Shown: in pieces, positions 11,828-53,481 of the stretch | How positions within the stretch are numbered: the stretch's first letter is position 1 | How the letters are laid out: each line of letters begins with the position of its first letter | NCBI GenBank assembly: GCA_026004195.1 | Contig: BPIQ01000002.1 | Coordinates: 434,001-498,000, forward strand | DNA length: 64,000 bases | Source: Candidatus Binatia bacterium | Lineage (GTDB): Bacteria > Desulfobacterota > Binatia > HRBIN30 > BPIQ01 | Reading direction: 5' to 3' | Made by a program: the position numbers and the translations under genes | The notes under the pieces: model-generated | What the model saw: only the letters and a program-made list of their open reading frames with translations | Told to the model about the DNA's origin: nothing | Database searches by the model: none

Positions 11828-12308
11828 GGACGCGACGGAGCGCGTCCCTCCGCGTCGAAGCGGTCGTCGGAGGGCCACGGGATCGCGAAAAAATCCCCGG
11901 TCGCCCGAATTTCGCCCGAAAAAATTCAATGAAATCAGAGCCTGCGATGGCGCGGGCGGAATTTTTTCACACGCTCCACGCTCTGTCGTGGCCATGGTCG
12001 CGGAGAACACCGGCGGTGATCGTGGTCGTCGACGTTATTGCGAGCCGGTATCTCGAAGGCGAACGATCACGTCGATCCCCACCCCCGGACGCGACGGAGC
12101 GCGTCGCTCCGGCGGATGTGCCCGGTACGTGCCGACCTCCACGCGACGTTTCGAACGTGCGGTCGGAGGGCCACGCTCTGTCGTGGCCGTGTTCGCGAAT
12201 GGCACCGGTGGTGATCGTGGTTGCCCGCGTTCTTCCGAGCCGCCGTCTCGAACGCGAACGGCCACGTCGCCATCCCCACCCCCCGGACGCGACGGAGCGC
12301 GTCGCTGC
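11828..12308. repeat. REP-like hairpin array 2, one copy interrupted by a MITE
   Basis: The 715-base gap 11649-12363 has no gene. It holds a reverse ACGCG hairpin (11828-11851), a forward CCACG hairpin split by the MITE at 11880-11976, reverse copies at 12087-12110 and 12285-12308 (last bases changed from CCCTCC to CGCTCC/CGCTGC), and a forward copy at 12165-12188. Confidence 0.85.
11880..11976 (+). mobile_element. 97-bp MITE-like element, copy 1
   Basis: Ninety-seven bases flanked by CACG on both sides (11876-11879 and 11977-11980), inserted into a hairpin of the form GGAGGGC-CACG-CTCTGTCGTGG. Ends: GGATCGCGAAAAAATCC on the left and, on the opposite strand, GAGCGTGTGAAAAAATTCC on the right, an imperfect terminal inverted repeat around GTGAAAAAATTCC. 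No coding capacity. The ends resemble those of the IS1182 element at 38037-39680, so that transposase could move it. Confidence 0.7.
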
Positions 12309-36684: not shown

Positions 36685-36775
36685 GGCAGGGGAGGCTGCC
36701 CGAGAACGGTTTTCCGTTCAACCCGGCATCGTTTCGACCCGATATCGTTCCGGCCCCCTCGATCCCCCCGCCCCC

Positions 36776-36958
36776 GGACGCGACGGAGCGCGTCCCTCCG
36801 CATGGCCCCGTTCGTCGATGGAACGTCCATTCTCGAATGCGATCGGCCACATCGATCCCCCCGCGCCGGACGCGACGGAGCCCGTCCCTCCGGAGCGAAC
36901 GTCCCGCGATGGCGCGCATCCCAACGCCACGTTTCGAATCCGCAATCGGAGGGCCACG
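36776..36958. repeat. REP-like hairpin array 5 ending in a half MITE
   Basis: Within the 594-base gene-free stretch 36685-37278. Reverse ACGCG hairpins at 36776-36799 and 36868-36891 (one base changed), then a forward hairpin that stops at CACG (36955-36958) where MITE sequence GGATCGTGAGAAAATCCC begins (36959). The matching right end of the MITE was not found, so it seems truncated. The rest of the stretch, 37030-37278, holds nothing I can name apart from the leader of the CBS gene. Confidence 0.75.
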
Positions 36959-37012
36959 GGATCGTGAGAAAATCCCCACTCGGCCGAATTTCGCACGAAA
37001 AAATCCAATGGG
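36959..37012 (+). mobile_element. truncated MITE-like element, left half only
   Basis: Begins with GGATCGTGAGAAAATCC directly after a forward hairpin arm and CACG. The following GGCCGAATTTCGCACGAAAA matches the interior of the complete copies at 11880 and 48669. The right terminal repeat and second CACG are absent. Confidence 0.55.
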
Positions 37013-37278
37013 CTCCGGGCCCCCCGTCACATTTCTCCCGACGGATCCGAACGGCTCCCTTCTACCCGTCCCCTGTTCGCATTCCCGCGAAACATCTTCC
37101 GGAACGTGCGAAGAGTCCCGTGTGAAAAAAAGCGAAAAGGCCCGTGCCTCAGGGGCGACGCATTTTGGCAGAGAGGTTGCTCCGCTTGAAAAGGAGGCGA
37201 TGCCCGTTGTGCCGGCGGAGGAGCCTTCGGGCGTTTTCCCCGTTCCTGAATAGCGCACACGGGCAAGGAGAAAAAGCG

Positions 37279-37746
37279 ATGGCAACGGTGCGGGACCTGA
37301 TGGTGACGGAGCTCGTCACGGTCGAGCCGCAAGCGACCGTGCTCCAGGCAGTCGAAAAGATGTGCCGAAACCGCGTAGGAGCGGTGCTCGTGGTGGAAAA
37401 CGACGAGCTTCTCGGTCTCTTTTCGGAGCGCGACTTGATGACGCGCGTCGTCGCCGAGCGGCGTGACCCGGCGAAAACGAAGGTCGGCTCCGTGTGTACC
37501 GGCACGGTCGTGACCATCGATGTCCAGCAGCCATTCCGGCAGGTCCTCGAAATTTTCCGGCAGAAAAGGTTCCGGCATCTCCCGGTTCTCGACGGATCGA
37601 AGCCCGTGGGTATCCTCTCGACCCGCGACTTCCTTGCCTATCTCGTCGACGGCCTCGAACGGTTCATCGACGAAGCCAAGTACCGGGAAGCCCTCGCCGA
37701 GGGAGTCGACATCTACGACCACCTCGGCGGAAGCTACGGCCTCTAG
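37279..37746 (+). CDS. CBS-domain pair protein
   Basis: A 155-residue protein of two CBS domains, about 1-65 (VRDLMVTELVTVEPQATVLQ ... GLFSERDLMTRVV) and 70-130 (SVCTGTVVTIDVQQPFRQVL ... GILSTRDFLAYL). CBS pairs bind adenosyl nucleotides such as AMP or ATP and regulate partner proteins; nothing else is fused here, so it is probably a stand-alone sensor. ATG at 37279 follows GGCAAGGAG. Confidence 0.9.
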   Translation: MATVRDLMVTELVTVEPQATVLQAVEKMCRNRVGAVLVVENDELLGLFSERDLMTRVVAERRDPAKTKVGSVCTGTVVTIDVQQPFRQVLEIFRQKRFRHLPVLDGSKPVGILSTRDFLAYLVDGLERFIDEAKYREALAEGVDIYDHLGGSYGL

Positions 37747-37750
37747 AGTC

Positions 37751-38036
37751 GGACGCGACGGGGCGCGTCCCTCCGGAGCGAACGTCCCGCGATGGCGTGC
37801 ATCCCAACGCCACGTTTCGAATCCGCAATCGGAGGGCCACGCTCTGTCGTGGCCGTGGTCGTGTTTGGTACCGCCCTCCGTGGCCGAACACGAACGACCG
37901 TGTCCCCATCCCCCCGGACGCGACGGAGCGCGTCCCTCCGGCGGGGGCGCCGTCCGTCGGATCGGAACGTCCGCACCCCGGATTGCGAACGCGACCGACA
38001 TCGATTCATCCCCCGCGCCGGACGCGACGGAGCGTG
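37751..38036. repeat. REP-like hairpin array 6, left flank of the IS
   Basis: Reverse ACGCG hairpin (37751-37774, one base changed), forward CCACG hairpin (37831-37854), reverse hairpin (37916-37939) and a reverse hairpin cut at its centre at 38020-38036 by the insertion sequence. About 175 bases of this array recur to the right of the IS (see 39681). Confidence 0.9.
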
Positions 38037-39680
38037 GAGGATGTGAAAAAATTCGGAAATTTACCCTGGAGGGATTCGGCTCTGGGGGCGGAGTGTGGTA
38101 GGGAGGGGAAGCTACGGTGGGGAGGTGAAGGGATGGAGCAGGTGGAGCTTCTGGGCGGGGAGAGTGCGGAGGAGAGGAAGCGGAGGCTCGCGGAGGCGCG
38201 GGAGCGGCGGCGGGCGGAGGCAGCGAAGGCGGCACCGCGGGTGGTGAGAGCGGAGCGGAGCCAGCTTCGGTGGGAGGTGGTGGATCTGGACGGCGAGCTG
38301 CCTCAGACGCACCGGGCCCGCAGTGTGTTGGCGGTCGTGAAGAAGCTGAACCTTTCGGCCTTTTACGAGAGGATCAAGGCGCGGGGGAGCTGGGCGGGGC
38401 GGGATGCGACGGATCCGCAGGTGCTTTTGGCGCTGTGGCTCTATGCGACGGCGGAGGGGGTAGGCAGTGCGAGGGAGCTCGAGAGGTTGACGGAGCAACA
38501 CGTGGCTTACCGGTGGCTTCGGGGCGGGGTACCGGTGAATTACCACACGCTGAGCACGTTTCGGAGCGAGAACGCGGAGGCGCTCGAGGAGCTTTTCACG
38601 CAGGTGTTGGCGGTGATGATGGCCGAGGGGCTGGTGCGGCTTCGGCGGGTGGCGCAGGACGGGACGCGGGTGCGAGCTTCGGCCGGGGACCGGTCGTTTC
38701 GGAGGAGAAAGAAGGTGGAGGAGCTGCGGGCGGAGGTACGCAGACAGATCGAGGCGCTGCGTGGGGAGCTCGAGGCACCGGCACGGCGGAGCCTCTCGAG
38801 GAGGAAGCAGGCTGCGCAGAGGCGAGCGCTCGAGGAGAGGGAGAGGAGGCTTACGAGGGCGCTCGAGGAGCTCGGGGCTTTGGAGAGGGAGCGCGGGGGT
38901 TACAAGAAGGGGGCGAAGGAGCCCTCGGGGGAGCCACGCAGCTCGACGACGGACCCCGAGGCGCGCGTGATGCGGCAGACGGGCGGGGCGTATCTTCCGG
39001 GCTACAATGTCCAGCTGGCGACGGACGCGGAGAGCGAGGTGGTGGTGGGGGTGGAGGTGAGTCAGGGGAGGACGGATTTTGCCGAGGCGGTGCCGATGCT
39101 GGAGCAGCTTGAGCGGAGGTTCGGGAGGCTTCCGGAGCAGTATGTGGTGGACACGGGCTACACGAGCGTGGAGAACGTGGAGGAGCTCAGTGCGCGGGGT
39201 GTGGAGCTTTACGGGGCTTTACCGAAAAGGAAGGGGAAGCCCGATCCCTACGAGGTGCGGCCCCGGGACAGCGAAGCGGTGCGGCAGCTCAAAGAGAGGA
39301 TGAGGACACCGGAGGGGCGGGCGATCTACGGCGTGCGGGCTCGGGTGAGCGAGCGGGTGCACGCGGACCTCAAGCGCTGGAGGACGCTCGGGAAGATCGT
39401 CTTACGGGGGAGAACGAAGGTGCGGTGCATCGTGTTGCTGAACGTGATCACCTACAACCTGCTGCGGTGGTTCGCCCTTCTTGCGGCCGCGGGCGGAAGC
39501 TAAGGCGTCGTAGGCGAGAGAGAGGGCCGAAACCGAAGACGAAAAGACCGGAAGGAGGTGGCAAGCCGGGGCTCGGTGGGAACCCCGGAGGCCGCCACCC
39601 TTCTCTTTTTTCCTCCGACCGACCCCGGCAAGCTCCTGCTTCGCTGGCCTTTCGCCAAGACCCGAATTTGTTCACAAACC
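38037..39680 (+). mobile_element. IS1182-family insertion sequence
   Basis: A 1,644-base element with one transposase gene. Ends are imperfect inverted repeats: GAGGATGTGAAAAAATTCGG on the left and, on the opposite strand, GGTTTGTGAACAAATTCGG on the right. It sits in the middle of an ACGCG-type hairpin: the left arm stops at CGTG (38033-38036) and the hairpin resumes at CGCG (39681-39684), compatible with a 4-bp target duplication with one changed base. The coding strand is purine rich and less C-ending than the neighbours, a sign of foreign origin. Confidence 0.8.
38133..39503 (+). CDS. IS1182-family transposase
   Basis: A 456-residue DDE transposase (IS5/IS1182 group). An N-terminal DUF772-like helix-turn-helix region (DPQVLLALWLYATAEGVGSA, EQHVAYRWLRGGVPVNYHTL) is followed by the catalytic core: Asp in RVAQDGTRVRAS, Asp in YVVDTGYTSVEN and Glu in VSERVHADLKRW. 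A coiled-coil insert (RRQIEALRGELEA and RALEERERRLTRALEELG) separates the first two. The ATG at 38133 lies after AGGTGAAGG. The gene looks intact, so the element may be active and may also move the MITEs. Confidence 0.92.
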   Translation: MEQVELLGGESAEERKRRLAEARERRRAEAAKAAPRVVRAERSQLRWEVVDLDGELPQTHRARSVLAVVKKLNLSAFYERIKARGSWAGRDATDPQVLLALWLYATAEGVGSARELERLTEQHVAYRWLRGGVPVNYHTLSTFRSENAEALEELFTQVLAVMMAEGLVRLRRVAQDGTRVRASAGDRSFRRRKKVEELRAEVRRQIEALRGELEAPARRSLSRRKQAAQRRALEERERRLTRALEELGALERERGGYKKGAKEPSGEPRSSTTDPEARVMRQTGGAYLPGYNVQLATDAESEVVVGVEVSQGRTDFAEAVPMLEQLERRFGRLPEQYVVDTGYTSVENVEELSARGVELYGALPKRKGKPDPYEVRPRDSEAVRQLKERMRTPEGRAIYGVRARVSERVHADLKRWRTLGKIVLRGRTKVRCIVLLNVITYNLLRWFALLAAAGGS

Positions 39681-39947
39681 CGCGTCCCTCCGGAGCGAAC
39701 GTCCCGCGATGGCGCGCATCCCAACGCCACGTTTCGGATCCGCAATCGGAGGGCCACGCTCTGTCGTGGCCGTGGTCGTGTTTGGTACCCCCTCCGTGAC
39801 CGAACACGAACGACCGTGTCCCCATCCCCCCGGACGCGACGGAGCGCGTCCCTCCGCGTGGCCGCGTCCGTCGATGGAACGTCCATTCTCGAATGCGATC
39901 GGCCACCCGGATCCGCCCGCGCCGGACGCGACGGCGCGCGTGCCTCC
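39681..39947. repeat. REP-like hairpin array 7, right flank of the IS
   Basis: Starts with the right half of the hairpin cut by the IS (39681-39691), then a forward CCACG hairpin (39748-39771) and reverse hairpins (39832-39855, 39924-39947). The stretch 39681-39857 repeats 37763-37940 with few changes. The 435 bases 39681-40115 carry no gene; 39948-40115 has the promoter region of the next gene and nothing else I recognise. Confidence 0.9.
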
Positions 39948-40115
39948 GACGCGTGCGGGCGGTACGCCGGACGCCGCACGTGCGTGCAAACGCGACGGAC
40001 ACGATCATTGGCCCCCCGCACGCCGTATGGATGTGTCGACGCCGCGGCCTCCGGTTTCTCCTGGACTCGCGCGCGTTCTCCCGTTACGCTTCGGCGGTTC
40101 GGAGCCGAAGTCACC

Positions 40116-43100
40116 GTGAAGATTCCCCCGTGGTCGCCGTGGAGAGGATGGGGGCTCCTAGCCTGCCTGCTTCTTGCAGCATGCGCGGGCGACGGGCCCA
40201 TGCCGAGTGGCCCCGGGGAAGCCGTCCCTCGTTCCCCCGAGAGGTTCTTCATCACGACAGTCGCGGGGACGGGCGTCGCAGGCATGAACGGCGACGGCCT
40301 TCCCGCACTCGAAACACAGCTCTACCTCCCGCAGGACGTCACCGTGGCACCGGACGGCACTGTCTACTTCCCCGACTGGAACAACCACCGCATCCGGCGG
40401 ATCGTCGACGGAATCGTCGAGACGGTGACCGGCACCGGGAAGCTCGGAGAGGCCCGGGACGGTCCCGCCCTCGAGGTCGACTACAACCACCCCACGAACG
40501 TCGCCTTCGATCACGAAGGCAGGATGGTGATCGCCGCGTGGCACAATAGCCTCGTCAAGCGACTGGATTTCTCGACGGGCTGGGTGGAGAACCTGGCGGG
40601 CACGGGCGCGAGAGCTTTCGGTGGCGACGGAGGACCCGGAAACCAGGCGCTTCTCGACCTTCCGAGCTCGGTCGCCGTGGATTCGAAGGGAAACATCCTG
40701 ATTTCCGACCAGGCGAACTTCCGCATCCGGCTCCTCGAGCCGAGCGGCATCATCCGAACCGTCTGCGGCGTGGGGACGCAAGGTTACAGCGGAGACGGAG
40801 GGCCCGCTGCCCTGGCGGAACTGAACTCCCCCGTGGGACAAGCAGCGCCGCCCGCAGGTCGCATCGCCATCGACGGGCGAGACCGCGTCTACATCGCCGA
40901 CACCGGCAACCACGTGATCCGCATGGTGGACGAAAACGGCATCATCACGACCATCGCGGGAACGGGCGAGCCGGGCTACTCCGGCGACGGCGGGCCGGCC
41001 ACCGAAGCGCGCCTCCATACACCCAGCGACGTGGCCGTCGCACCCGACGGGACGGTCTACGTCGCCGACACGATGAACCACGTCGTGCGGCGGATCTCGC
41101 CGGACGGGGTCATCACGACCGTGGCCGGAACCGGCAAGCGAGGGTTCGGAGGAGACGGAGGTCCGGCCGAGGAAGCACTTCTCGACCGGCCCTACGGCAT
41201 CGGCATCGCACCCGACGGCAGTGTCTACGTGGCCGACACGCACAACCACAGGATTCGCCACCTCACGGCCGAGCCACCCGAAGGGCCGGCGCCGACGCCC
41301 ACGCCTCCGAGCGTCGAGGTCGTCCCCTGCACGAACGAGATCGGCACGATCTGCACGTACGCCGGCACCGGTGAAGAAGGCTTCAACGGCGACGGGCGGC
41401 ATCGCCTCGAGACGATGCTCTACTGGCCCGTCGACATCGAGTTCACGCCCAGCGGGCGGATCTACGTGCTCGACTGGAACAACCACCGAGTGCGGGAAAT
41501 CCAGCCCGATGGCACGCTTCGGACCGTCGTCGGCACCGACTTCGTCGGCGACGGGCCGCCCGACCTCTCCGACCTCACGGAACCCGGCGCACCGGGGACC
41601 ACCGTCGACCTCAACCATCCGACCGACGTCCTCGAGCTCCCCGACGGGCGCCTCGTACTCATGGCCTGGCACAACCACAAGATTCGCCTCTACGACCCCG
41701 AGACCGGGCGAGTCCGGGTCCTGGTCGGTGCGGAGGCAGGTTTCCGGGGCGACGGCGGTCCGGCGCGGGATGCCCTTCTCAACCAGCCTCCTCATGCGTC
41801 GTTCGACGCCCGAGGAAACCTCTTCGTCCTCGACCAGCGAAACGAGAGGATCCGCGTGATCCGGCATTTCGCCTCGCTTCTCGGCGAAGGTACGATCGAA
41901 ACCGTGGCGGGCACGGGCGAGGCCGGCTTCAACGGCGACGGCCCCGCCCTCGAGACGCTCTTCCACTTCCCGACGGGGCCCAATCCCGAACCGTCCGGAG
42001 GGATCGCCGTGGGGCCCGACGGGGCCGTCTATTTCGCGGACACGCTGAACCACCGGATCCGGAAGCTCGTCTTCTCGGACGCCGACTTCCGTGACGGCCG
42101 GGTCGTCACGGTTGCCGGGACCGGCGAGCCGGGCTTTTCCGGCGACGGCGGCCCGGCGATCGAAGCTCGCCTTCGGTTCCCGCAGGACCTGGAATTCGGC
42201 CCCGACGGCAAGCTCTACTTCGCGGACGCGGAAAACCACCGGATTCGCCGCATCGATCTCGACACCGGAACCATCGAAACCGTGGCAGGAACCGGCGAGC
42301 CCGGCTTCTCCGGCGACGGCGGGCCCGCCACGGCGGCCCGGCTCGACCGGCCTTTCGGCGTCGCGTTCGACGCGGCGGGCGACCTCTACATCGCCGACAC
42401 GTACAACGGGCGCGTCCGCAAGGTGAAGCTCAGCGAAACCCGGACGGAACCCGAACCTGTCTTCCCCGAGGACTACCGGTCGACGTTCGTCGAGGTCCGG
42501 GACTGCCGCTTCAGCATCGAGCACGGCGGGGTGAGCGTGCGGGTGCTCGCCAACCCGATCGCCGTTCAGGCTTACCTGAACGAGACTTCGCCCCTTCCCG
42601 TCGGCTCGGTCGTCGTCAAAGAAGAATTCGCGGGCCCGGACTGCACGGACGAGAACCTGGTAGGCTGGCGGGCCATGCGGAAAGAAGCTCCGGGCTTCGA
42701 TCCCGAAGACAACGACTGGCACTGGCAGTGGCTCGACGCGGAGAGGCGCATTCGCACCGAAGACAAAACCCCGTGCGTGGCTTGCCACCGAGCCCAGGAC
42801 TGCCTCGAGCGCGACTACATGTGCACGAAAGAAGAGCCCTTCGACACGAACCGTGTCCGGGTCGTTCTCGACGGTCTCGGCGCCGCCCTTCTCTCGGTTT
42901 CCGGGTTCACGCCCGAGGCACCGGACGAAGGTGGCGGTGCCCACGAAACCAACCCGCAGCTCCCTCCGACGCAAGTCTGGGCCGTGGGGGCCGACCCGCA
43001 AGACGGCCAGGGACCCCTCGTTCTCCACTACGACGGAAAGATCTGGCACAGGCTTTCGACCGGAGCCGAGGGGGACCTCTGGTGGATCAGCGTCGCGCCC

Positions 43101-44221: not shown

Positions 44222-44318
44222 GAGGATCTGAAAAAATTCCGCCTGCGCCATCGGAGGCCCTGATTGCATTGAATTTTCTCGGGCGAAATTCGGGCGACCG
44301 GGGATTTTTTCGCGATCC
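44222..44318 (-). mobile_element. 97-bp MITE-like element, copy 2
   Basis: Flanked by CGTG on both sides (44218-44221 and 44319-44322), the reverse complement of CACG. Reads on the minus strand as GGATCGCGAAAAAATCCCC ... and ends GAGGATCTGAAAAAATTCC on the plus strand. Same length and interior as the copy at 11880. Confidence 0.75.
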
Positions 44319-46821: not shown

Positions 46822-48677
46822 ATGCGCGGCCTCGTCTTCGTCGTGACTCTGGTCGGGGCCGTTCCGTTTTCTCCACGCTCGGCGCTCTCGCAGGTCCGCA
46901 GCGCCGACGACCTCTGCCCGCCTCGAACCGATCCCTGTATCGTATCCCGTGCCTTTTCGGTCGCGCCGGAGGCGGTGCTCGACTTCGGGTCTCGAGAGCT
47001 CCGGGTCGCCTCGCAAGGACAGCTCCAGGGTAGCGGCGCGAGCTTCACGGTCCTCGCTCGATCCCTTCGCGTGGACACCGGAGGTACGCTCTCCTCCCGA
47101 GGGAACTCGGCGGCGGACGGAGGCAGCATCGAGCTCGAGGCGGCCGAATCGGTACTCGTGGCCGGCGAGATCGACGTCTCCGGCGCAAGCGGCGGAAACC
47201 TCCGCGTCGACGCGACCCGGATCGAACTCGCGGGTGGAAGAATCCGGGCGCGAGCGCTCGCATCGGAGGGCTCCGGGGGGAGCGTGCTCCTCGAGGCCAC
47301 CGAACTCGAGCTCGCAGGCGAGATCGTAGCCACGGGGGCAAGCGGAGGCAGTGGAGGCCAGGTGGAAATCACCGCTACGTCCGCGGTGACCGTCAGGGGA
47401 AGCTATCGACGTTTCCGGAGGGGAGCTCGACGCGGGAGAAATCGCCATCGAAAGCGGCGGCACGTTCACCTCCACACCGACGGCATCTTTCGTCCTCGGG
47501 GCGACGAACGGAGGCAGCGGCGGGTTTTTCGACCTGGACGCGACCGGGCTCCTCCTGCTCGGAGGGTCGATTTCGGCGAGCGGCGGAAGCTCTCCGGATT
47601 TCGGTGGCGACGGCGGACAGGTCGACGTGACCGGAAGTTCCGCCTGCGTTTTCTCCGCACGGATCACCGCCCTGGCGGGAGGACCGGACGGAAGCGGCGG
47701 GAGCGTCCTCCTCCGGTGCGAGGGCAGCGACCCCACGGTCTCCTCCGGAGACGTCGACGTGCGGGGAACCGCATCGGAATCCGGGGGAGGTCAGGTGATC
47801 CTCGTCACCGACGGTGGGCTTTTCGTGACGGGGCGGATCGACGCGAGCGGGCGGGAAGGGGGTGGGGGTACCGTGGATCTTCAATCCCCCGGAGAAATCC
47901 GGGTGGAAGGGTCCGATCCTCGCCAACGGTACGGGTGGGCCGGCAGGGACGGTCGGGGTGGACACGCTCGGCGTGGGTCGGTTCGAGCTCGCCGGTACGC
48001 TTGCCGCCGACTCGACCTCCGACGGCGGTGGGCGGGTCGAGATCGTTTCCTGCCGGACCTTTGTCGAGAGGGGCGGGCGGGCCACGGCGCTCGGCCCGGG
48101 GGGCGCACTACGGTTCACGGCAGCGAACTTCCTCGAGGTGAGCGGAACGCTGCGCGCTTCCTCGGACGGAGGCATCACGTTCGTCTATCGCGACAACGCG
48201 CCCGCGATCCTCGCCACGGCAACGGTGGATCCGGCCCCCGTGATTTTTCGCGATTCCACCCTCGCCGGTTGCGGCGGAGGACCGACCCCGACACCCAGCC
48301 GAACGAGAACACCGAGCCCGACCCGGACGGTGACCTCGACGCCGACCGGAACCACGACAGGGAACACGCCGACACCGACTTCCTCCCGTCCCGTTCCGAC
48401 GCGCACGCCCACCCGAACCGGTACCCCTACCCCGACGCCCACGCGGACACCCACGCCTCGACCGACTCCGGCGGGACCGGGTGACGTCGACTGCAACGGC
48501 AGGATCGACCTGTCGCCCACGGGAGAACTCCTGGCCTTGGCCCGAGAAATCTTTCTACCTCCCGAGCTCGGCTGCCCCCTGGCCGACGTGAACGGCGACG
48601 GAAACGTCGGCGCCGCGGATTATCCCGCGCTTTTCCGTGTTCTCGCGCCTTGGAGTCGGAGGGCCACGGGATCGTGA
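46822..48677 (+). CDS. adhesin-like secreted protein with Pro/Thr linker and dockerin-like end (two frameshifts)
   Basis: About 617 residues after repair. A signal peptide (LVFVVTLVGAVPFSPRSALS) leads to many short beta-helix repeats of the form (DVSGASGG-NLRVDATRIELAGG). A Pro/Thr/Arg linker follows (PTPTPSRTRTPSPTRTV), then DVDCNGRIDLSPTGEL and CPLADVNGDGNVGAADYPAL, calcium loops of the dockerin type. Frame changes at runs of G (47396-47399 and 47909-47911) are each repaired by dropping one G, and the total length is three-fold plus two. The final residues WSRRATGS and the stop are encoded by the hairpin and MITE that begin at 48658. Confidence 0.65.
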
Positions 48678-48766
48678 AAAAATCCCCCCTCACCCGAATT
48701 TCGCGCGAGAAAATCCCATCAAAATTACAGCCCACGATGGCGTGGGGGGAATTTCTTCACATCCCC
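48669..48766 (+). mobile_element. 98-bp MITE-like element, copy 3
   Basis: Flanked by CACG at 48665-48668 and 48767-48770 within a forward CCACG hairpin. Ends GGATCGTGAAAAAATCCCC and, on the other strand, GGGATGTGAAGAAATTCCCC. Its first bases supply the stop codon of the preceding gene. Confidence 0.78.
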
Positions 48767-52462: not shown

Positions 52463-53481
52463 GGAGGGCCAAGAACGTGCGAAAAAATCCGCCGGGCGCG
52501 ACCGAACCTGTCGCTTTCATTGGATTTTCTCGCGCGAAATTTGGCGAATCAGGAATTTGTTGACGAACCCCACGCTCTGTCGTGGCCGTGGTCTCGGAGG
52601 GACCCGCTCTGTCGGGTCCCTGTTCGTGCATGGTACGGCGCCCCGCCCCCCGGACGCGACGGAGCGCGTCCCTCCGCGGTGGCACGCGACGGCAACGCGT
52701 TCTTCCCCACACCGCGCTTCGAATCCGCAAATCGGAGGGACCACGCTCTGTCGTGGCCGTGTTCTCGGAGGGACCCGCTCTGTCGGGTCCGTGTTCGTGC
52801 ATGGTACGGCGCCCCGCCCCCGGACGCGACGGAGCGCGTCCCTCCGCGATGGTGGTCGCCGTCGTGCGCCGCGGGGCGTTCGTTGGACGCCCCGCCTTCG
52901 CGTTCGCCGCGCCCCCCCCGGACGCGACGGAGCGCGTCCCTCCGCGGTGGGACGCGACGGCAACGCGTTCTTCCCCACACCGCGCTTCGAATCCGCAAAT
53001 CGGAGGGCCACGCTCTGTCGTGGCCGTGTTCTCGGAGGGACCCGCTCTGTCGGGTCCGTGTTCGTGCATGGTACGGCGCCCCATCCCCCGGACGCGACGG
53101 AGCGCGTCCCTCCGGATGGTGGTCGCCGTCGTGCGCCGCGGGGCGTTCGTTGGACGCCCCGCCTTCGCGTTCGCCCCGCCCCCCCCGGACGCGACGGAGC
53201 GCGTCCCTCCGCGGTGGCACGCGACGGCAACGCGTTCTTCCCCACACCGCGCTTCGAATCCGCAAATCGGAGGGCCACGCTCTGTCGGGTCCGTGTTCTC
53301 GGAGGGACCCGCTCTGTCGGGTCCGTGTTCGTGCATGGTACGGCGCCCCGCCCCCCGGACGCGACGGAGCGCGTCCCTCCGCGGTGGCAGCGGTCGCGCG
53401 CGGCGGGGCGTTCCTTCCACGCGCGACGTTCGCGTCCGGCCCCGACGATCCCCCCGGACGCGCGACGGAGCGCGTCAGTCC
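52463..53481. repeat. REP-like hairpin array 10 with a 267-bp tandem repeat
   Basis: The 1,055-base stretch 52420-53474 has no gene. It contains all three hairpin versions: CCACG forward (52734, 53002), ACCCG forward (52596, 52767, 53034, 53301) and ACGCG reverse (52652, 52822, 52920, 53090, 53187, 53357, degenerate at about 53456). Three copies of a unit of about 267 bases follow one another. One hairpin (53269-53292) is a hybrid whose arms no longer match. The last copy runs into the 3' end of the gene at 53475. Confidence 0.9.
52474..52570 (+). mobile_element. 97-bp MITE-like element, copy 4
   Basis: Flanked by CAAG (52470-52473) and CACG (52571-52574) inside a forward hairpin. Ends AACGTGCGAAAAAATCCG on the left and TTCGTCAACAAATTCC on the opposite strand on the right, more worn than the other copies. 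Interior shares TTGGATTTTCTCGCGCGAAAT with copies 2 and 3 (opposite strand). Confidence 0.65.

Follow-up and report, generated by a model that had tools for sequence, protein, structure and literature searches.

An IS1182-family insertion sequence and MITEs with similar ends in a REP-like hairpin family of a Candidatus Binatia genome

Introduction

Some insertion sequences (ISs) of the IS1182 family are known for their attraction to inverted repeats. In Staphylococcus, IS1272 and TnSha1 target inverted repeats or stem-loops without preference for a primary sequence, remove the stem-loop partly or entirely, and leave no target duplication (PMC5678879, PMC4923244). Palindrome targeting in this family was noted by Siguier et al., as reported in the same two papers. 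There are also MITEs with ends of this type. MITEPye1, from Paracoccus yeei, has IS1182-like terminal repeats, is flanked by 4-bp direct repeats, lies in intergenic regions, and has an IS1182-family partner, ISPye18 (PMC11578231); the text of that paper does not mention a hairpin or palindrome as target. Finally, ISs of other families dwell in REP sequences. This association, of type 1, has been described for ISPsy8, ISRm22, ISRm19, ISPa11, ISPpu9, and ISPpu10, and REP targeting also for IS1397, ISKpn1, and IS621 (PMC1525189). In these cases 100% of the copies lie at one point of the REP, direct repeats are short or lacking, and some hybrid repeats are attributed to recombination; IS1182 and MITEs are both absent from the text of that paper. 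Here, we analyse a stretch of 64,000 nucleotides from a Candidatus Binatia genome (hereafter, the window), in which an earlier note had described an IS1182 element at the centre of a hairpin, with ends resembling those of MITEs.

Results

An IS1182-family element splits a hairpin

The assignment of the element (Table 1) to the IS1182 family, already made in the earlier note, agrees with the curated model NF033551 of NCBIfam, which scores 337.6 bits on the transposase (cut-off 270), while the other models listed for this protein score below their cut-offs. The terminal inverted repeats (GAGGATGTGAAAAAATTC and GGTTGTGAACAAATTC) and the 4-bp CGNG duplication are those of a member of the family. 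The transposase has a match to the DDE domain PF01609, which places it among the DDE enzymes. Its residues D177, D341, and E408 (P0001 numbering) are invariant in an alignment of three sequences with 42–50% identity, and are likely to form the catalytic triad.

The interval first given for the element, 38033–39684, is exact, as are its outermost bases, CGTG on the left (38033–38036) and CGCG on the right (39681–39684); it takes in both of these 4-bp flanks besides the IS. The flanks had been read as the centre of the hairpin. They are instead the two copies of a target duplication, one of them altered. The element does interrupt a hairpin, but we rejected an insertion at its centre: the cut lies where the loop meets the 3' arm, 5 nt away from the centre of symmetry. 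A second, smaller dyad (CGGAG/CTCCG around CGCGTCC), which would have the cut in its loop, was also rejected: it is less stable than the main hairpin (−4.0 when folded alone vs −8.2 kcal/mol) and is broken in the hairpin versions with ACAGAG.

The transposase gene had been reported to be intact, and this holds for the copy in the window. The copies differ in a run of G at column 489 of the IS alignment: four copies have 4 G and an intact gene, and the other six (among L001–L010) have 5 G and a gene split over two frames. A further copy in another assembly (L057, see below) also has 5 G. Two copies, L008 and L010, are nearly identical apart from the length of this run, which is therefore a slippage site, a programmed frameshift, or an assembly error. 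The gene that adjoins the IS, at about 40240–41900, encodes many repeated motifs resembling NHL/beta-propeller repeats.

Table 1. Features of the window and of related elements. Positions refer to the window, except those preceded by a contig (C).
Feature	Position	Strand	Description
IS1182-family IS	38037..39680	+	1644 bp; 1 of 10 full genome copies
Left terminal inverted repeat of the IS	38037..38056	+	GAGGATGTGAAAAAATTCGG
Right terminal inverted repeat of the IS	39661..39680	-	GGTTTGTGAACAAATTCGGG on the minus strand
Transposase gene	38133..39503	+	456 aa, intact in the window copy
Left part of the split hairpin	38020..38036	+	arm GGACGCG, loop ACGGAG, CGTG (left duplication copy)
Right part of the split hairpin	39681..39692	+	CGCG (right duplication copy), TCC, constant CTCCG tail
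Uninterrupted hairpin beside the IS	37751..37770	+	paralogous near-empty site; right-hand neighbourhoods of hairpin and IS 97% identical
MITE L145, 97 bp	11880..11976	-	hairpin GGCCACG-ACAGAG-CGTGGCC; duplication CGTG/CGTG
MITE L158, 97 bp	44222..44318	+	hairpin of the same family; duplication CGTG/CGTG
MITE L147, 98 bp	48669..48766	-	hairpin of the same family; duplication CGTG/CGTG
MITE L159, about 97 bp	52473..52570	-	hairpin position of the IS; right duplication copy altered
IS5-like element, four copies	C2:499531-500325; C1:35374; C1:85943; C5:20880

The hairpins form an abundant REP-like family

The hairpin split by the IS belongs to a family with the consensus GG[AC]CNCG-ACRGAG-CGNG[GT]CC, of which the host genome (G000; 3.63 Mb, 98.9% complete) contains 529 uninterrupted matches, vs none for a reversed control pattern. 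Together these hairpins cover less than 0.4% of the bases. The window alone has 39 of them uninterrupted, and GGACGCGACGGAGCGCGTCC has 40 matches there at up to 3 mismatches (0.18 expected). They occur in clusters, in both orientations and with compensated stems (e.g., C1:41140-44587, or 36775–40000 and 52600–53400 in the window). This pattern was not found in any of 97 other genomes from the order and class of the host, which hence lack orthologous sites.

REP/REPIN systems are moved by REP-associated tyrosine transposases (RAYT). The hairpins of the present genome are likewise high-copy, but the genome differs from such systems in having no gene that matches Y1_Tnp (PF01797), a search in which 5 of 14 controls were positive. 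For want of a Y1 transposase gene, we rejected the spread of the hairpins by a RAYT and do not class them as RAYT-associated REPs.

All full copies of the IS occupy one position of the hairpin

We found 10 full copies of the IS in the genome and a partial one (L011, 1014 bp, without either end), which was left outside the scoring of target positions. The full copies are more than 99% identical to one another (mean 99.6%), and the spread of the IS is thus recent. Mapping them, as the earlier note had proposed, placed all 10 in hairpins and none at a random site. The hairpins that they split are all of this family, and neither the position nor the orientation of the IS varies among them, i.e., the association is of type 1 in the sense of Tobes and Pareja. 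Ten insertions out of 10 within the small fraction of the genome covered by the hairpins exclude chance.

In every full copy, GAG-CGNG stands before the left end of the IS, and the right end is followed by CGNG, then by what remains of the 3' arm, and then by the tail. At these sites the 5' arm is GGACGCG, GGCCACG, or GGACCCG, and the 3' arm is CGCGTCC, CGTGGCC, or of the CGGG type, followed by CTCC(G). The IS has thus entered three stem versions (CGCG, CGTG, and CGGG), which are compensated, while almost every site has the loop ACRGAG and the tail CTCCG. The 4-bp CGNG duplications are identical in 8 of the 10 copies and fit the local stem.

The two copies with unequal duplications are the one in the window (L001) and L004. 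The former is flanked by CGTG and CGCG and has a segmental duplicate, L002, with CGCG on both sides; over 1077 nt, the left flanks of the two share 97% identity. Since the two differ in one flank, one base has changed in one copy of the duplication. L004 joins a left half of the GCG type to a right half of the GTG type and shares flanks with its neighbour L006, as expected if copies had recombined; hybrid repeats of the recombination type have likewise been described for ISRm22 (PMC1525189). Given the flanks shared by L001/L002 and by L004/L006, there appear to have been at least eight separate insertions.

MITEs with similar ends share the target

When up to 2 mismatches are allowed, the window has 15 matches to the motif of the MITE ends, GTGAAAAAATTC (1.4 expected by chance), and those with 0 or 1 mismatch all lie at ends of the IS or of MITEs. 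We identified at least 13 MITEs with both ends in the genome, four of them in the window. They are short (96–99 bp, and hence without a transposase gene), have inverted repeats, occur in many copies, and are associated with target duplications, as expected of MITEs. Twelve of the 13 are in the hairpin family at the position used by the IS, and eight have identical 4-bp duplications. One (L159) is reversed in its hairpin relative to the other MITEs and to all IS copies. Another (L046) sits in a different hairpin, CGGGCGG-GGCTTCGT-CCGCCCG, which hints that structure is a cue for the choice of the target. Separately, a MITE reduced to its right half lies at 36958–37009 in the window and again at C3:79735-79786 of the host genome, each time about 1 kb from an IS copy (L001 and L002, respectively); both half-MITE sites belong to the duplicated segment that includes the IS.

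The earlier note had stated that the IS ends are close to those of the MITEs, and this is the case: in the seven MITEs compared, 15–19 of 20 bases are alike at the left end and 13–15 of 20 at the right end. Shuffled MITE left ends match the left end of the IS at 7.8 of 20 bases on average and at most at 14. We found no convincing match between the interiors of the MITEs and the IS beyond these ends. The two kinds of elements also differ in age. The mean identity among MITE copies is 69% vs 99.6% for the IS copies, a MITE value that is slightly too low because the reversed copy was aligned the wrong way round; in a separate search with one MITE, most full copies were 74–93% identical. This divergence places most of the MITE movement before the present IS copies.

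It had also been suggested that the IS moves the MITEs. Ends, target, and duplication match as this requires, but the MITEs are too diverged for most of them to have been moved by the present IS, which in its current form is probably not their mobiliser. They could instead owe their movement to a different IS1182-type element with the same target that has since been lost, the present IS being a later arrival. We take this as a serious possibility, though not as the probable course of events. The divergence just described would fit it, as would the poorer match of the right ends relative to the left ones and the unrelated interiors. Against it stand the left ends, up to 19/20 identical to the IS, and the 4-bp duplication, the hairpin position, and mostly the orientation, which are common to MITEs and IS. 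Furthermore, a search of the genome with the IS transposase as query revealed no second IS1182 transposase. The only other related transposon that it retrieved is unlike the MITEs at its ends, so that the better-matching transposase that could have overturned the suggestion was not encountered. We rejected this IS5-like DDE element (L030–L033, one copy just right of the window) as a mobiliser: its ends begin with GCTTGCTGAAAAACT and it is not flanked by hairpins of the target family. The candidate mobiliser that we favour is the lineage of the present IS, or a close relative or sister of it.

Distant relatives also enter dyads

The conserved parts of the target leave room for another reading, in which the transposase recognises GAGCGNG...CCCTCCG as a linear sequence, without regard to the hairpin, which is there only because this stretch lies in a REP-like repeat. 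The loop and tail, constant in nearly all IS sites, agree with this, and so does a cut away from the centre of the dyad. Because of this constancy, a hairpin and a linear motif are inseparable in these sites. Other observations favour structure: three different stems are used, and MITE L046 lies in a hairpin with another loop.

Further information comes from relatives of the transposase, found at 80 loci in a scan of 84,980 genomes. The ends assigned automatically in a first pass were not credible for about half of them, and we used 22 more distant relatives, from other phyla, with credible ends (GAGNNTGTGAA). Stems interrupted by the element, with a score of at least 8 between the flanks, were present in 7 of these 22 (e.g., L086, L097, L106, and L110) vs 3% of mispaired flanks. 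In many other relatives the target is a short palindrome, CTNAG. Read by eye, the relatives are inserted at or near the centre of the dyad, whereas the insertion is shifted in the host IS. Having a dyad at the target thus seems to be general in this branch of IS1182. Relatives that enter dyads despite quite different target sequences argue against the linear motif, which we consider conceivable but not the likelier cue. The cue that the transposase reads is more probably the structure, either an extruded hairpin or a double-stranded dyad.

A filled and an empty site reveal a simple insertion

A transposase 98% identical to that of the IS (L057) is encoded on an 18-kb contig of the MAG Candidatus Poribacteria KatS3mg115 (G098 contig 34). 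The 2.8-Mb KatS3mg115 assembly has five matches to the hairpin pattern, all of them on this contig (L170), which is mostly 93–98% identical over kilobases to contig 3 of the host genome (about 95% locally). It carries the IS, hairpins, and a MITE-like element. The filled site discussed here therefore comes from a contig seemingly misbinned in another MAG, and most likely derived from a near relative of the host organism. Where the relative has CGTG-IS-CGTG, the host genome (C3) has an intact hairpin, GGCCACGACAGAGCGTGGCCCTCCG. In their wider context, the empty site reads CGGCCACGACAGAGCGTGGCCCTCCG and the filled one GACAGAGCGTG-IS-CGTGGCCCTCCG. The filled site thus retains every base of the hairpin and has CGTG twice. 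The pair is direct evidence that the IS entered by simple insertion, with cuts staggered by 4 bp at the loop/3'-arm junction.

The same pair bears on a stem-loop replacement of the kind described for IS1272, in which the hairpin would be replaced without target duplication. The IS has the family and the preference for inverted repeats in common with IS1272 (PMC5678879, PMC4923244). Yet the retention of every hairpin base at the filled site, the 4-bp duplication there, and the matching duplications in 8 of the 10 IS copies make such a replacement very unlikely, and the element does not belong with the replacing type. A reading in which the hairpin halves belong to the ends of the IS itself, and the targeting is an artefact of how the ends were assigned, hardly deserves consideration: such halves do flank every full copy, but they follow the local hairpin type (GGACGCG, GGCCACG, or GGACCCG), and the hairpin is complete at the empty site.

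Discussion

The observations are best explained as a whole by an active, or recently active, IS1182-family IS that inserts in a fixed orientation into REP-like hairpins, and whose lineage has moved MITEs in trans. We hold this reading with considerable confidence. From sequence comparison, the family of the element is established, as are its ends, target, position, orientation, duplication, and the filled and empty states of one site. We infer that the transposase itself picks the hairpin, and the match of ends, target, and duplication suggests that it may also act on the MITEs.

In the mechanism that we propose, the transposase would bind ends of the form GAGGATGTGAA/GGGTTGTGAA and cut out or copy the IS. 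It would then recognise a REP-like hairpin and make a 4-bp staggered cut at the loop/3'-arm junction (GAG^CGNG^[GT]CC). Joining of the IS in a fixed orientation would split the hairpin in two and duplicate CGNG. MITEs with compatible ends would have been moved in trans by the IS lineage, either by ancestors of the present IS or by a close sister, which would explain why they have an identical target and duplication. A further idea is that an IS1182 transposase and a MITE family have become locked onto one REP-like hairpin, that the hairpins are a safe harbour shared by both, and that the transposase reads the hairpin in its extruded form. We put this forward tentatively, as a proposition somewhat short of even.

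The pairing of an IS1182 element with hairpin-targeted MITEs had been thought undescribed. We found no paper in the open-licence PMC literature that combines IS1182, MITEs, and hairpin targets, but the claim of novelty was too broad: IS1272/TnSha1 targeting and MITEPye1 are published. Hairpin targeting by IS1182, MITEs with IS1182-type ends, and REP-targeting ISs of other families were thus each already described separately. What is new is the targeting of hairpins by an IS1182 element together with matching MITEs on one REP-like repeat family, and the outcome of the insertion. The locus thereby brings together three separate observations: IS1182 elements favour inverted repeats, some MITEs have IS1182 ends, and some ISs dwell in REPs. 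It is also a natural system for asking if a DDE transposase reads structure or sequence, one that offers three stems, a clean empty site, and more than 20 insertions.

Among the known systems, the REP-targeting ISs belong to the IS3, IS110, IS4, IS256, and IS5 families, whereas the present one is an IS1182 element. MITEPye1 resembles the present MITEs in its IS1182-like ends and 4-bp repeats, but it has 1–3 copies per chromosome (PMC11578231), whereas at least 12 copies of the latter lie in one hairpin family. IS1272 and TnSha1 have a transposase of the same family and also target inverted repeats or stem-loops. The present IS differs from them in keeping the hairpin, in duplicating 4 bp, and in hitting one repeat family at a fixed position. 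Hence, members of the same family can either retain or delete the hairpin that they enter.
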